Positions 27,681 to 59,933 of a stretch of DNA of 64,000 nucleotides are shown here, one piece after another (position 1 is the stretch's first letter; each line of letters begins with the position of its first letter). The position numbers and the translations under genes were made by a program. Source of the DNA: Larkinella humicola (GTDB taxonomy: Bacteria > Bacteroidota > Bacteroidia > Cytophagales > Spirosomataceae); contig NZ_VTWS01000006.1 of NCBI RefSeq assembly GCF_008727875.1, positions 372,001 to 436,000 on the forward strand, written 5' to 3'. The notes beneath the pieces were generated by a model, which did no database searches, was not told where the DNA came from, and worked only from the letters and a program-made list of their open reading frames with translations.

Positions 27681-28127
27681 TTAGTACCGGCGCCCGTAGT
27701 AACCGCGATCGTTCCGACGGTATTGTTGTTGGTAAGCAAATAATCTTTCGCGTTGGTTGGGGGTCAATACCGCCATCATTTCCTGATTTTTCCGACGCAG
27801 CGTATATTGGTAAGCCTGAGGATCGCGCCGTCTGGCGGCTTCCATTTCGCGGTAATCGTACCGGTCTTCGATGCGCTTCAGTTGCCGCTCCTGATGACGC
27901 GACAGACCAACGATGGCATCCAGGCGGTCAATTTTAATGTCTTCCTGAATATCGTCCCGGCGTTGGTTGTCGTAGCGGCCGTTACCGTAGCGATCGTTAT
28001 CGTAGCGTGGGTTGTCGTAGCGTGGGTTGGGGGCCGGGTAACGGTCGTTGTCGTATCCGCGCTGGGCCATGACAGTTCCGGTGCTTAAAAAGGCTAAGGT
28101 GACGAGGGTGATGATGGTCGTTTTCAT
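27681..28127 (-). CDS. Secreted Tyr/Arg/Asp-rich protein of unknown function
   Basis: The 148-residue product has a clear signal peptide (MKTTIITLVTLAFLSTGTVM then AQ). The mature N terminus is built of short repeats rich in Arg, Tyr, Asp and Asn (PRYDNPRYDNDRYGNGRYDN). A helical part follows (LSRHQERQLKRIEDRYDYRE, then LTPNQRERLFAYQQQYRR), which recalls the L-T-x-x-Q turns of Spy/CpxP-like periplasmic proteins, but I do not assign it to them. The end is RRNDRGYYGRRY. Its promoter region would be the AT-rich gap above 28127. Confidence 0.8.
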   Translation of the reverse strand: MKTTIITLVTLAFLSTGTVMAQRGYDNDRYPAPNPRYDNPRYDNDRYGNGRYDNQRRDDIQEDIKIDRLDAIVGLSRHQERQLKRIEDRYDYREMEAARRRDPQAYQYTLRRKNQEMMAVLTPNQRERLFAYQQQYRRNDRGYYGRRY

Positions 28128-35921: not shown

Positions 35922-35968
35922 GCAACGCAAAAATCACCCGAACAAAGCCCTGCGGGGCTGGCATTTGG

Positions 35969-36126
35969 ATAACCCCGGATGCAATCCGGGGATGGGGATG
36001 GGGGTGGGGTGGGGCTGGGCTGGGGGTGGACATGGACCTGGTGTACGGGCCGCGTGCCAGAGACGCATAGCTGTAGCCGCCCCTATCCCTATCCTCACCC
36101 CCACCCCGGATGCCATCCGGGGTTGC
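35969..36126. repeat. GC-rich inverted repeat of CCCCGGATGCAATCCGGGG type
   Basis: The left part at 35971-36010 starts AACCCCGGATGCAATCCGGG and continues with GGGGATG/GGGGTGGGG runs. The right part at about 36083-36123 is the matching complement, ending CCCCGGATGCCATCCGGGG then TT. Each end is itself a short palindrome, and the G-rich/C-rich runs pair with each other across a core of about 70 bases. Its ends, GGATAACC and GGTTGCAC, recur in the large palindrome at 46543-46665. Confidence 0.7.
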
Positions 36127-45371: not shown

Positions 45372-45659
45372 TCATTCCGTAGCCTCCCGCCCCTCCGGTG
45401 TAAACCTCACCCGGGCATCACCGAGCATTCCATCCTCCTTTTTCGTCACGCGTTTTAACCGGGCAAACGCATCTTTCCGCACCTTGATCGAGGCATCATC
45501 GAAGCGTTTGAACGTGGCCCAGTCGACATAAGCCCGGTTGGCATCGGTGTCCAGAAAACCGCCATATTCGAGTTGGTGTTTGTCCAGTTCCAGCACGTAA
45601 ATCACGGTCAGCGTAATGGGCTGGTTCGTTTTGGAGTAGAAAGTCCAGGTCAGTTTCAT
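45372..45659 (-). CDS. Hypothetical small protein after the transposase gene
   Basis: From the ATG at 45659 the product is 95 residues (MKLTWTFYSKTNQPITLTVI). It reads as an alpha/beta protein with a positively charged helical end (KVRKDAFARLKRVTKKEDG). No export signal or known motif is visible. It begins 35 bases after the transposase gene on the same strand and could be co-transcribed, but it is not an IS200-type accessory gene that I know of. It may be a normal chromosomal gene next to which the element lies. Confidence 0.55.
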   Translation of the reverse strand: MKLTWTFYSKTNQPITLTVIYVLELDKHQLEYGGFLDTDANRAYVDWATFKRFDDASIKVRKDAFARLKRVTKKEDGMLGDARVRFTPEGREATE

Positions 45660-45693: not shown

Positions 45694-46128
45694 TCACTTT
45701 TCCTCGTATCGCAGGCCATTTTCTTCCAGTAAGGATCTGTATTCCTCCATAAAAGGCACTTTTTTGTGGTGTTCTTTCTGCTTTTTGATGTAGCGGATAA
45801 TTTTGTCCCGCTCCCGAATCGAATACGTGAAGGCTCCGTACCCGTCGGCCCACCCTTCAAACTCAGGAAAAAGCCCACTCTCTTTCATCCAGCGCGAACT
45901 GCCCGCTTTGATGTCTTTCACCAGATCAGCCAGCGCAACGGTGGGGTGCAAATCGCTAAGAATGTGGATGTGGTCTTCAACTCCGTTGATGCGGAACAAT
46001 TGACAGTTTTTGCTTTTGACAATGCCCCAAACATACCGGTATAATTCAGTGCAATGGATTTCGTTGATGGTTGGTTTGCGGTATTTGGTTCCAAAAACGA
46101 TTTGATACAGGATTTGACGGTAGCTCAT
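45694..46128 (-). CDS. IS200-type Y1 transposase (TnpA/RAYT-like)
   Basis: From the ATG at 46128 (MSYRQILYQIVFGTKYRKPT) the protein has 144 residues, the normal size of a Y1 HUH transposase. The HUH metal-binding motif appears as DHIHILSDLHP, and the C-terminal helix with the catalytic tyrosine as RDKIIRYIKKQKEHHKK. Y1 enzymes cut and join single-stranded DNA at hairpins. No typical IS200 end hairpins are obvious, and it lies about 160 bases from a very large palindrome, so it may be a domesticated, repeat-associated (RAYT-like) form. An in-frame ATG at 46143 is less likely to be the start. Confidence 0.85.
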   Translation of the reverse strand: MSYRQILYQIVFGTKYRKPTINEIHCTELYRYVWGIVKSKNCQLFRINGVEDHIHILSDLHPTVALADLVKDIKAGSSRWMKESGLFPEFEGWADGYGAFTYSIRERDKIIRYIKKQKEHHKKVPFMEEYRSLLEENGLRYEEK

Positions 46129-46292
46129 GAGAATGCTGGTCAAGGTGGTTTATGTTTTTTACAGTGAGACGGTATCCAGCCCCTGGAGTCACATCCCATT
46201 CAGAGGACGTAGGTAGTTATAGTGTCGGCTATCGCAGGAGCGACGGCCTATCCGTAGGTCGACTTCGGGCGCAGACGTGCAGCACTAGCATG

Positions 46293-46553
46293 ACCGAGGG
46301 CACTGGCTCGACCGAGGGCTCCGACGAGACCGAGGGCTCCGACGAGACCGAGGGCTCCGACGCGACCGAGGGCTCCGACGAGACCGAGGGCTCCGACGAG
46401 ACCGAGGGCTCCGACGAGACCGAGGGCACCGACGCGACCGAGGGCACCGACGCGACCGAGGGCTCCGACGAGACCGAGGGCTCCGACACGACCGAGGGCT
46501 CCGACGCGACCGAGGGCTCCGACGCGACCGAGGGCTCCGACGCGACCGAGGGT
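46293..46553. repeat. Left arm: about 15 tandem copies of an 18-bp unit
   Basis: The unit is GACCGAGGGCTCCGACGA with small changes, mostly GA/GC/AC before GACC and CTCC/CACC inside. Fifteen ACCGAG starts lie exactly 18 bases apart from 46293 to 46545. In one forward frame it reads [12 protein letters not shown], and in a reverse frame GALGRV. Confidence 0.9.
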
Positions 46554-46665
46554 TGCACCCCCGGTTATCAATTCTCAACCCTCGGAGGGTTGTAAGTGAT
46601 CGGGAGCTTGCCGATTAACGCCGAAGGTTTTAAGTATGGATAACCGGGGGTGCAACCCTCGGTCG
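46543..46665. repeat. Central inverted repeat with perfect 27-bp arms
   Basis: The arm at 46543-46569 (CGACCGAGGGTTGCACCCCC then GGTTATC) is exactly complementary to 46639-46665. Inside lies a second palindrome, CAACCCTCGGAGGGTTG, at 46576-46592. The outer tandem repeats continue the pairing on both sides. Confidence 0.9.
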
Positions 46666-46790
46666 TGCCAGTGTCCTCGGTCGCGTCGGAGCCCTCGGTC
46701 GTGTCGGAGCCCTCGGTCGTGCCAGTGCCCTCGGTCGTGTCGGAGCCCTCGGTCGTGCCAGTGCCCTCGGTCGTGCAGGTGCTGGGCGAT
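46658..46790. repeat. Right arm: tandem 18-bp units in inverse orientation
   Basis: About seven units, read CCTCGGTCGTGTCGGAGC on the plus strand, are the complement of the left-arm unit. They mix GTGTCGGAGC and GTGCCAGTGC variants, so the right arm has diverged and is shorter than the left arm. Together the arms could form a cruciform of about 500 bases. Confidence 0.85.
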
Positions 46791-46940
46791 CATGCCAGTG
46801 CTCATCAGCCACGCCAGTGCTGGGCGATCATGCCAACGCTCGGCGGCCTTGTCCGTACTCAACGCCCCCGCATATTGATTTGCGCCCACTTTCTGACTAC
46901 TTTTATTATTTCCAGCTTTCCATCAGCCCAGTCCATTCCC

Positions 46941-49082
46941 GTGAAAAACCCGCTTTTCCTTTGTTTGGCTTGCTTTCTGTTTTCGTTTACTGCCGGAATT
47001 GCCCAAAAAACCGCCCAGCCAGCCCCATCCGTAAAATGGCCGGACAACCTGCCGTGGTGGAAAGCCAACAACCTGCGCGTGATCCAGACGAATTTACCCG
47101 CCTACGAAGCCGCAACCCTCCACCCGGATTCGCTGCTGAAAGACCTGCTGGCGTGTTCGGCCAACACGCTGCTGATCAACGCGGGCGGCATTATGGCCTT
47201 CTACCCCACCCAGCTCGATTTTCAGTATACCAACCCCTACATGAAACCGAATACGCTGGCCGAGGTCATCAAAAAGTGCCACGAAAACGGCATTCGGGTG
47301 GTGGTGCGGTTCGACTTCAGCCGGGTTCACGAAAGCATCTTCAAGGCCCACCCCGACTGGTGTTATATTTCCCCAAAAGGCGAACGGATCATCAACACGG
47401 ATATGTACGTGGTGTCGATCAACGCGCCGTATGTACAGGACCGGGCGTTCAAAATCATCGCCGAGGTGATCGACCAGTTTCCCATCGACGGAATTTTCCT
47501 GAACATGCCGGGCTATCAGGTCAACAACCCGTATGAGGGCAAATACCACGGCATCGACCAGAACGAAGCAGACAAAAAAGCCTTCGCAGCTTTTAGTTCG
47601 GGAATGACCTTGCCCACCGTCGAGAACAAAGCCGACCCGGTTTTTCAAAAGTACCTGGCCTTTAAAAAAGCCACGGTCGAAGACTGGTCGAAACGATTGC
47701 ACGAACTGGTAAAGTCCAAAAATAACCAGATTGCGATCTGCACGTACATGGACAAATATGTCGACATCATCCGGCACGAATCCCAGTCGAACACCAGCCT
47801 TCCCTACTGGCCTTACACGGCTTCCGACAATGTGAGCAATGCCGTCAACTCCTTTCCCAACCACATCATTAGCAACGCCAGCATTCAGCAGATTTCGTTT
47901 CAGTCGCGCTACAATGCCGTGGAACCGGAGGAAGTCGGAATTCGGTTGTACGAAAACATCGCCAACGGTTCGGGCCTGGATATCAGCCTGATGGGCGACA
48001 TGCGGGGTTACGAAGACGAACGCAACTTCGACATCGTCAAAACCATTTACGCCCACCACAAGAAGCACGAACCGTATTTCGGAAACTACCAATCCGTCGC
48101 TAAAATCGCCGTCGTAGCCCCCGGCGCCTGGCCGAGTGGCGAACCCATGCAGGAATACCGGGGCATCGTGCTGATGCTGAAAGAAGCGCACCTGCCGTTC
48201 GACATCATCGAAGACGGGCAGCTCGGCAACCTGGCCGAGAAAGTCAAAAAATACAAACTCCTGATTCTGCCGGAAATCACCTACCTGAGTGCCGAAGCCA
48301 TCCGGGTTTTGAAAGAAGCGAGCCAGCAGGGTACCCACCTCATTGCCACCAACCGGACGCTGTTCGACAGTCCGGAAACTTTGCAGGACTTGTTCGGGGC
48401 CAAGATCATCCAGAAAGACCACGACGGGGCCGGTTTTTACCTTAATCCCGAAAACAAAACCGTCTTCAAGCGTTTTCAGAAACAGTCGATGCTTTTCTGG
48501 AAATTCAATCTGGGACTCTACGATCTGAAAGCCGCCGATGCGCTTTTTCTGCCCATTCTGGCGAGGGGTCGCCCCGGCCCGCCGGAGATCATCGGCGGCC
48601 ATGATCCCACCGGGTATTACGCGATGGGTGTTAAAAAACACGCTAAAAGTCTGGCGATTATTCTACCAATTAATCTGGGGCGGCTCTATTACATGCACGG
48701 TTACGAACAACACAAAAACATTCTGCTCGACGCCATCGACTACCTGTTGCCGGAAGCGAACCAACTGGTTCAGACCAACGCGCCCGAACGCATCGAGGTT
48801 ATTTTGCAGGAATACACGAAAAACGTTCCGGCCAACGTCACGAAGAAAACCACCGACGGCCTGATTCTGCATCTGGTCAACCTGACCGGTTTTAGCGGAA
48901 ACACGTATTTCAAACCGCTGCCGGTTTACGAGCTAAGCTTCAGAATCAAGGCGGACTTTAAGCCCTCGAAAGTCTTCTCGATGGTGACCGAAAAACCGGT
49001 TCCATTTACGTGGAAAGACGGTTTTGTGGAGCTGAAAGTGGCTAAACTCGGCGACTTCGACGGGCTGGTGCTGGACCGGTAA
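46941..49082 (+). CDS. GHL6/GH42-like glycoside hydrolase with A4-type trimerisation domain, secreted
   Basis: The start is best placed at the GTG at 46941, giving 713 residues with a signal peptide (VKNPLFLCLACFLFSF, then TAGIAQ); an upstream open frame runs into the repeats and has no suitable start. The N-terminal barrel carries CSANTLLINAGGIMAFYP, CHENGIRVVVRFDFSRVHES, and FPIDGIFLNMPGYQV, typical of the Hypothetical Glycosyl Hydrolase 6 type. A middle Rossmann-like domain (LLILPEITYLSAEAIRVLKE) resembles the beta-galactosidase trimerisation domain of GH42. A beta-sandwich ends the chain. The substrate is unknown. It stands alone after the repeat region. Confidence 0.8.
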   Translation: MKNPLFLCLACFLFSFTAGIAQKTAQPAPSVKWPDNLPWWKANNLRVIQTNLPAYEAATLHPDSLLKDLLACSANTLLINAGGIMAFYPTQLDFQYTNPYMKPNTLAEVIKKCHENGIRVVVRFDFSRVHESIFKAHPDWCYISPKGERIINTDMYVVSINAPYVQDRAFKIIAEVIDQFPIDGIFLNMPGYQVNNPYEGKYHGIDQNEADKKAFAAFSSGMTLPTVENKADPVFQKYLAFKKATVEDWSKRLHELVKSKNNQIAICTYMDKYVDIIRHESQSNTSLPYWPYTASDNVSNAVNSFPNHIISNASIQQISFQSRYNAVEPEEVGIRLYENIANGSGLDISLMGDMRGYEDERNFDIVKTIYAHHKKHEPYFGNYQSVAKIAVVAPGAWPSGEPMQEYRGIVLMLKEAHLPFDIIEDGQLGNLAEKVKKYKLLILPEITYLSAEAIRVLKEASQQGTHLIATNRTLFDSPETLQDLFGAKIIQKDHDGAGFYLNPENKTVFKRFQKQSMLFWKFNLGLYDLKAADALFLPILARGRPGPPEIIGGHDPTGYYAMGVKKHAKSLAIILPINLGRLYYMHGYEQHKNILLDAIDYLLPEANQLVQTNAPERIEVILQEYTKNVPANVTKKTTDGLILHLVNLTGFSGNTYFKPLPVYELSFRIKADFKPSKVFSMVTEKPVPFTWKDGFVELKVAKLGDFDGLVLDR

Positions 49083-59785: not shown

Positions 59786-59933
59786 CTTCGATATTCGACA
59801 TTCGTTTATAAATTTCTTTATTCGTTATTTGTTATTTTTTATTCGTTATTCGTTATTCAATATTTAATCTATAACTAATAGACAAACAACACTTTAATAT
59901 CGAATAATGAATGACGAATATTGAATATCGAAG
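59786..59933. repeat. AT-rich inverted-repeat element ending one base before the stop codon of the reductase gene
   Basis: CTTCGATATTC at 59786-59796 and GAATATCGAAG at 59923-59933 form the perfect ends; inside are many TATTCG/TTATTCG repeats on the left and their CGAATA complements on the right. The right end is directly followed by T and the TTA stop of the aldo/keto reductase gene. A sister element with the same AT-rich core lies at 62817-62957. Confidence 0.65.

Follow-up and report, generated by a model that had tools for sequence, protein, structure and literature searches.

The window (the whole stretch of 64,000 nucleotides that was analysed) contains a gene for a Y1 HUH transposase at 45694–46128 on the minus strand, identified by Pfam PF01797, NCBIfam NF033573, motifs and fold, and assigned by signature to TnpA_Y1 subclass 1.2. 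The product has 144 amino acids from the ATG at 46128; an ORF with a TTG start reaches 46143 (149 aa). The matches to PF01797 (Y1_Tnp, E = 7.1e-23) and to NF033573 (transpos_IS200, 65.7 bits, cut-off 55) bear out the original prediction, which had placed an IS200-type HUH transposase gene next to a giant palindrome. Residues H58, H60, Y118 and Q122 were invariant among the aligned relatives. The AF2 model of the protein (pLDDT 91.2) gave ISDra2 TnpA as the best fold match (E = 8.1e-10), with IS608 TnpA also among the most alike; the RAYT structure 4er8 was a weaker match (E = 9.4e-6). The RAYT model NF047646 gave no match to the protein at E ≤ 0.001, and the tyrosine motif is YIKKQ, not Y---NP. 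By fold and by NCBIfam model, the window protein is nearer to IS200 TnpA than to the RAYTs.

In the accessible text of Quentin 2018 (PMC6006769), subclass 1.2 has the HUH motif DH[IV]H, the Y motif Y---Q--HH and a length of about 148 aa; its members are described there as low-copy, as coming mostly from Cyanobacteria and Bacteroidetes, and as generally lacking the terminal structures typical of IS200. The window protein carries DHIH and YIKKQKEHH in 144 aa and comes from a Bacteroidota host, in whose genome the gene is present as a single copy (other Y1 matches are 36–48% identical). Table 1 of the same article, as far as seen in that text, gives REP 'no' for the subclass, a reported property and not a defining sequence feature; on this point the window's clade departs from the entry, with elements beside nearly all of its intact genes (counts below). 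No TnpB was found in the two neighbouring ORFs scanned beside the gene. A short ORF lies just downstream of it (45372–45659, minus strand; MKLTWTFYSKTN...; no Pfam match), and DNA resembling this ORF adjoins the Y1 gene in genomes G001 and G003.

Two 18-bp tandem arrays were delimited with Tandem Repeats Finder (TRF), one left of the palindrome centre (46292–46552, 14.5 copies, 94% matches) and one right of it (46656–46782, 7.1 inverted copies, 83% matches), in good agreement with the predicted 15 or so direct copies and about seven in inverse order. When units were counted outward from the central hairpins by TRF and unit listing, the left array comprised 14 units of 18 nt (46292–46545, minus strand) and the right array six 18-nt units and one partial unit (46663–46782, plus strand). 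Variants of the left unit are TCGCGTCGGAGCCCTCGG, TCTCGTCGGAG... and TCGAGCCAGTG..., and the unit listings were flat, with no polarity seen along the arrays. The 9-mer GACCGAGGG occurs 15 times on the plus strand and 6 times on the minus strand of the palindrome stretch and nowhere else in the window (shuffles: mean 0.74, maximum 5). Degenerate 19-nt repeats were found past the right array by repeat search (46779–46873, plus strand; other copies 61–76% to the reference copy; TRF 46779–46835), and speak against a wholly recent origin of the palindrome. Other short tandem repeats lie in the window at 59812–59932 and 27960–28029.

The perfect 27-bp inverted repeat expected at the centre was read directly from the sequence; its left arm (46543–46569) corresponds to the hairpin HP2 (below) with its flanks, its right arm is at 46639–46665, and the smaller palindrome CCGGGGGT-GCA-ACCC(C/T)CGG is nested inside it. 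As single-stranded DNA the centre folds at −47.8 kcal/mol (z = −10.1). The description of the whole as a long near-perfect palindrome holds for this centre and fails for the arms, the longest arm pair being 153 nt at 87% complementarity with 51 nt in between, and the arms being unequal in length (14.5 and 7.1 copies). The outer ends of the two arrays were identical at 38 of 42 aligned nt, 12 of these nt lying beyond the left array; the flanks past both arrays matched from arm to arm no better than chance (50 of 500 shuffles were as good). Because the arms have unit variants in common, the outermost units included, a transfer of sequence between them is probable, through inverted duplication or through conversion of one arm by the other; the likeness fits either process and proves neither. 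Comparison of 46150–46880 with the rest of its own genome gave array-length matches at the window only, and the central element does recur elsewhere.

The centre consists of an inverted pair of one two-hairpin element, which has the plan HP1, 11-nt linker ending in NTA(A/G), HP2; HP1 lies inside and HP2 outside. The left element (46546–46592, minus strand; 30.0 bits and E = 1.3e-5 with the covariance model R1 described below) is composed of HP2 (46546–46564), linker (46565–46575, AGAATTGATAA) and HP1 (46576–46592), and reads CAACCCTCCGAGGGTTG-AGAATTGATAA-CCGGGGGTGCAACCCTCGG. The right element (46616–46662, plus strand; 37.9 bits, E = 9.4e-8) has an imperfect HP1 (46616–46632), followed by the linker (46633–46643) and HP2 (46644–46662) as AGTATGGATAA-CCGGGGGTGCAACCCTCGG. 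A third member of the family is found in the window far from the Y1 gene (35946–35991, plus strand; 28.8 bits, E = 2.8e-5). From its HP2 foot runs a low-complexity 11-bp array (35988–36029, plus strand; TRF period 11, 3.7 copies), and the locus is closed by an HP2-like palindrome (36104–36122), which was read from the sequence and is not an R1 match.

The plan was recognized among 80 Y1 loci found with a Y1 protein alignment, as a hairpin, about 8 nt, TA(A/G) and often a second hairpin; hairpins with recurring flanks were listed before any tag was demanded. When hairpin pairs of the window's clade (loci with ≥46% protein identity) were searched without a tag requirement, TA(A/G) ended 44 of 86 linkers (ATAG 20, TTAG 8, ATAA 7, GTAG 4, GTAA 3 and TTAA 2; the window has ATAA). 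The REP head GT[AG]G is absent from the window, and GTAG is present in only 4 of the 86 clade linkers. HP2 and the NTA(A/G) on its 5' side together resemble a canonical REP whose head is relaxed, and HP1 is an addition to it.

Proximity to Y1 genes was measured in three ways. A strict two-hairpin search that demanded TA(A/G) gave 81 elements at distances of up to 500 bp from the gene (187 kb searched), against 3 in about 504 kb of more distant DNA; 240 kb of random family DNA yielded none. An element lay within 600 bp of the gene in 40 of 191 non-redundant loci. The later search for hairpin pairs, from which the tag was dropped, gave 86 pairs, spread over 32 of the 59 loci that belong to the window's clade; the 240 kb of random DNA contained 2. 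The covariance model R1 was built from 22 elements. Counted by eye, its matches at E ≤ 0.01 lay beside 54 of the 55 intact genes of the clade (that of the window, L162, included), and beside 42 of 43 when the 12 intact loci used for training were set aside; the sole intact gene missing the cut-off was at L121 (E = 0.02). On 240 kb of random DNA, R1 gave one weak match (E = 0.5). Covariation in alignment A2 (99.7% of cells paired) is no independent proof, the stems having been chosen as perfect, and the test lies in the scans outside the training loci. Where the closest element within 300 bp lay upstream, it faced the gene in 19 of 24 loci; where it lay downstream, it did so in 15 of 27; the window has its pair upstream of the gene only.

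The presence of the same repeats beside other copies of the transposase had been proposed as a check; it was confirmed for Bacteroidota and for a few assemblies that carry the labels of other phyla, which supports the association of repeat and transposase. These loci have the central two-hairpin element in common, and not the 18-bp unit, which differs from place to place. Loss of the gene is not reliably accompanied by loss of the repeats, as R1 elements persist beside two of four broken clade genes (at L117, itself a training locus, and L123, not at L171 and L182). The orthologue in G001 is interrupted by one stop, and no element was found between it and the hydrolase gene; that in G003 is intact and has four elements beside it. 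Mobility of gene and elements as a whole unit was also considered and rejected: the duplicate of the gene in G116 lies in a perfect 2829-bp inverted duplication that reaches the ends of the examined stretch, and no element-bounded unit was seen. The two loci concerned (L179 and L191, about 21 kb apart) hold the Y1 gene in this perfect inverted duplication of at least 2.8 kb, which may be an assembly error.

For the genome-level survey, R1 was run on the best 30 candidates of each of 200 family genomes, gene-side elements being included in the counts. At E ≤ 1e-4 it matched in all 20 genomes that have an intact clade gene and in 19 of the 178 that have no clade gene (Fisher p = 5e-17); of the genomes with a broken clade gene, G001 had an R1 element and G029 did not. 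With the same number of candidates and cut-off, dispersal was not evident in G010, G067, G090 and G119 (1, 1, 2 and 1 elements), and G027, G035 and G113, in which no clade gene was detected, had at least 29, 30 and 12 R1 elements among the best 30 candidates scored. The window's own genome has at least 60 R1 matches at E ≤ 0.1 and at least 42 at E ≤ 1e-3 (150 of 3050 candidates scored), so that the same element is dispersed there, as in REPtrons; by eye, at least 16 inverted pairs with starts within 300 bp of each other were counted among the scored matches. Many of the dispersed copies carry another HP2 (such as CCCCGGATGCAATCCGGGG) than the gene-side pair, and may belong to another enzyme. 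The strict pattern GGATAACCNNNGGTNNNACCNNNGG was tried as a family probe and replaced by the covariance model as too narrow (11 matches in the own genome, 5 in G003, one each in G004 and G030, and none in 55 other genomes). The ends of contigs C13 and C20 of the own genome (L272–L274, L290, L299) lie at or near family elements, and array lengths in draft genomes are uncertain for this reason.

Array tests were carried out on 187 distinct elements, obtained by removing duplicates from 198 near-full-length R1 matches (mostly E ≤ 1e-3) chosen by hand from 405; short or weak matches, and 30 from the own genome that had no locus, were left out. Of the 187 elements, 21 had a tandem array that started no more than 12 nt from the HP2 foot, and 3 had one that started equally close to the HP1 foot (18 and 2 when the hairpins were removed from the input); the HP2 foot was free of an array in the remaining 166. 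Units shared at least 4 nt with the 3' end of their own HP2 in 17 of the 21 cases (random HP2s: mean 4.6, maximum 10) and at least 5 nt in 13 (mean 2.4, maximum 7), and four array units lacked 4 nt of the foot. Foot and period were CCCTCGG and 18 at the window, TCCTCGG and 20 at L168, CAGTGCAGGG and 14 at L164, ACGG and 17 at L166, AATCCGGGG and 20 at L285, AATCCGGGG and 30 at L280, and CGGGG and 8 at L030.

The last 7 nt of HP2 occurred 40 times in the element's own 3' flank (permuted mean 3.1, maximum 15 in 500). With the window excluded, 22 of 184 elements had them on the 3' side (after permutation, mean 2.3 and maximum 8 in 1000) and 4 of the same elements on the 5' side. The HP1 foot (7 nt) was copied outward in 13 of the 184 and the reverse complement of the HP2 foot was found in the 3' flank of 15, both above the permuted HP2-foot mean; the HP2 side stands out for foot copies, yet it is not the only side that has them.

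Apart from those at L084 and L093, all foot arrays are in genomes of the window's family. They are found at 8 of the 10 intact closest orthologues (≥71% identity; G000, G003, G010, G067, G068, G152, G191 and G197, not G090 and G119), and they are missing from elements beside the clade genes of G098, G108, G116 and G118. Within the genus of the window, 30 loci of 63 matches were checked. In G002, G005 and G006, where no clade gene was detected, 26 elements were examined and 11 had an HP2-foot array; among these 11, three are copies of a single module, another has the whole element as its repeat and another a unit without the foot. None of 4 elements in G001 had such an array.

Repeats were also common around Y1 genes at large. 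Among Y1 loci with enough flank, local 13-mer repeats covered at least 40 bases in 145 of 176 and at least 80 bases in 123 of 176; the corresponding figures were 14 and 8 of 76 for gene-centred controls (at least 300 bp of intergenic DNA) and 11 and 3 of 140 for random DNA windows. Within the window's clade, repeats of at least 40 bases were found in 45 of the 52 loci with an intact gene and in none of the 4 with a broken one; in other clades the counts were 93 of 112 for intact genes and 7 of 8 for broken ones. Of 113 loci (redundancy kept), 54 had tandem arrays within 800 bp of the Y1 gene; this near zone contained 88 arrays in 172 kb, and the more distant DNA 43 in 338 kb. Beyond the window's clade, hairpins with a GGTA(A/G) tag after them were present in 26 of 120 loci and in 3 of 180 control windows, and other Y1 branches may own separate repeat families. 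In the same-genus genome G005, locus L062 has a second large palindrome with arrays of 16–19 bp round an inverted two-hairpin core, beside a different Y1 gene; R1 gives no score to this core. Three further arrangements were observed: a Y1 gene flanked by two stretches of 310-bp tandem units (L127, 1392–4314; Phaeodactylibacter), a Y1 gene between 300-bp direct repeats that are 98% alike (L114, 2628–3704; a Chlorobiota MAG) and a 3'-end stretch of a Y1 gene that recurs next to the gene with hairpins (L049, 1283–1554).

The window palindrome and the neighbouring TnpA_Y1 subclass 1.2 gene probably form a REPtron-like locus, with an inverted REP-like pair as its core and with arrays that grew in place at the HP2 feet. 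The dispersed element family, as single-stranded hairpin DNA, would be the most likely substrate of the clade enzyme, judging from the association with its genes. The 18-bp arrays do not belong to the dispersed element: unit and period differ between elements, and the arrays appear for this reason to have been made in place, from the outer HP2 foot, each unit being a copy of the HP2 3' foot plus a spacer, repeated outward. We infer that the likeliest route is slipped-strand DNA synthesis as the polymerase exits the HP2 hairpin; cleavage by the Y1 enzyme on the HP2 side may help but would not be required. Slippage on hairpin templates has been reported for archaeal polymerases in vitro (PMC4134008, in the part of the article available), and would account for the start point, the varied periods and the arrays in same-genus genomes in which no clade gene was detected.

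An alternative that we consider unlikely is that the enzyme itself drives the arrays: guided by NTA(A/G) at the 5' foot of HP2, it would cut 3' of HP2, and cycles of cutting, copying and rejoining would build the array. Characterized REP systems have their guide tetranucleotide on the 5' side of the hairpin, with cleavage possible on the hairpin's 3' side (PMC8266576, accessible text); the arrays start on that same 3' side, and their frequency at the closest orthologues is as this mechanism would have it. Against it stand the foot arrays in G002, G005 and G006, the four genomes whose clade genes have elements and no such arrays, and the wide variation of periods. Slippage is the likelier of the two because same-genus genomes without the clade gene also carry arrays. 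The original suggestion that the enzyme maintains or moves the palindrome is weakened by those arrays and by a protein that is nearer to IS200 TnpA than to the RAYTs. A broader form of the idea, in which subclass 1.2 TnpA proteins would be domesticated hairpin processors with two-hairpin REP families of their own, and a cut 3' of HP2 would start repeated local re-synthesis and so build arrays templated on the substrate edge, is regarded as unlikely.

An assembly error as the source of the palindrome, or of changes in it, is improbable. The ends of contigs C13 and C20, which lie in family elements, indicate that the family breaks assemblies, and the inverted duplication in G116 may be an error of this kind; the window lies, however, inside a 646-kb contig, its units differ among themselves (the copy number may still be wrong) and analogous structures are present in other genomes. 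A chance neighbourhood of an ordinary minisatellite with an inverted duplication, unrelated to the transposase, would agree with the lack of another array-length match in the own genome, but was rejected as most improbable on the association of gene and element, both locus by locus and genome by genome, to which the independent large palindrome at L062 and the HP2-foot test of the arrays are added. A protein-coding repeat (18 bp being six codons, for TEGSDE or PSVVSE repeats, one of them joined to a glycoside-hydrolase-like gene) was dismissed as equally improbable: both arrays are open in frames (ORFs 46152–46595 and 46650–49082), but periods of sister elements such as 8, 10, 11, 14, 17 and 20 nt do not keep the frame, and the hydrolase has a signal-peptide-like start after the array (judged by eye).

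A literature search by title and start of abstract, with most subscription journals outside its scope, gave nothing on REPs of subclass 1.2 or on hairpin-foot arrays. A poorly known enzyme group is linked here to a repeat family of its own: a Y1 group that is listed without REPs adjoins its own two-hairpin elements, so that direct tests of its likely substrate have become possible. The arrays are cases of new tandem repeats from a defined point, the hairpin foot, through which the birth of bacterial minisatellites can be tested in vitro and by comparison of strains.

Among known systems, IS200/IS605 has the nearest enzyme to the window protein by fold and NCBIfam model, but several near-identical copies would be expected of such an element, and the window gene is single. 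REPtrons (RAYT/TnpA_REP; Nunvar 2010, PMC2817692; Quentin 2018), in the accessible text of both articles, resemble the window in combining a Y1 HUH gene with inverted hairpin elements, dispersed copies, inverted pairs and a short head at the hairpin foot. Their enzyme is of class 2 (Y---NP), whereas that of the window is of class 1 (Y---Q--HH), and the window's clade differs from them in the head NTA(A/G), in the preceding second hairpin HP1 and in arrays seeded by the hairpin foot. TIRtrons (TIRYT; PMC3733652) are also Y1 genes with long flanking inverted repeats, some double-palindromic and some in repeat families; the accessible part of that article names neither subclass 1.2 nor tandem arrays grown from a palindrome. 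The BIME and REPIN clusters, as far as the available text of PMC2817692 describes them, resemble the window in having REPs in inverted pairs and in tandem clusters. In BIME-2 the repeated unit is a whole REP module, whereas the window unit holds only the 3' foot of one hairpin; the new detail is that the arrays start at the outer HP2 foot and that their units repeat this foot.
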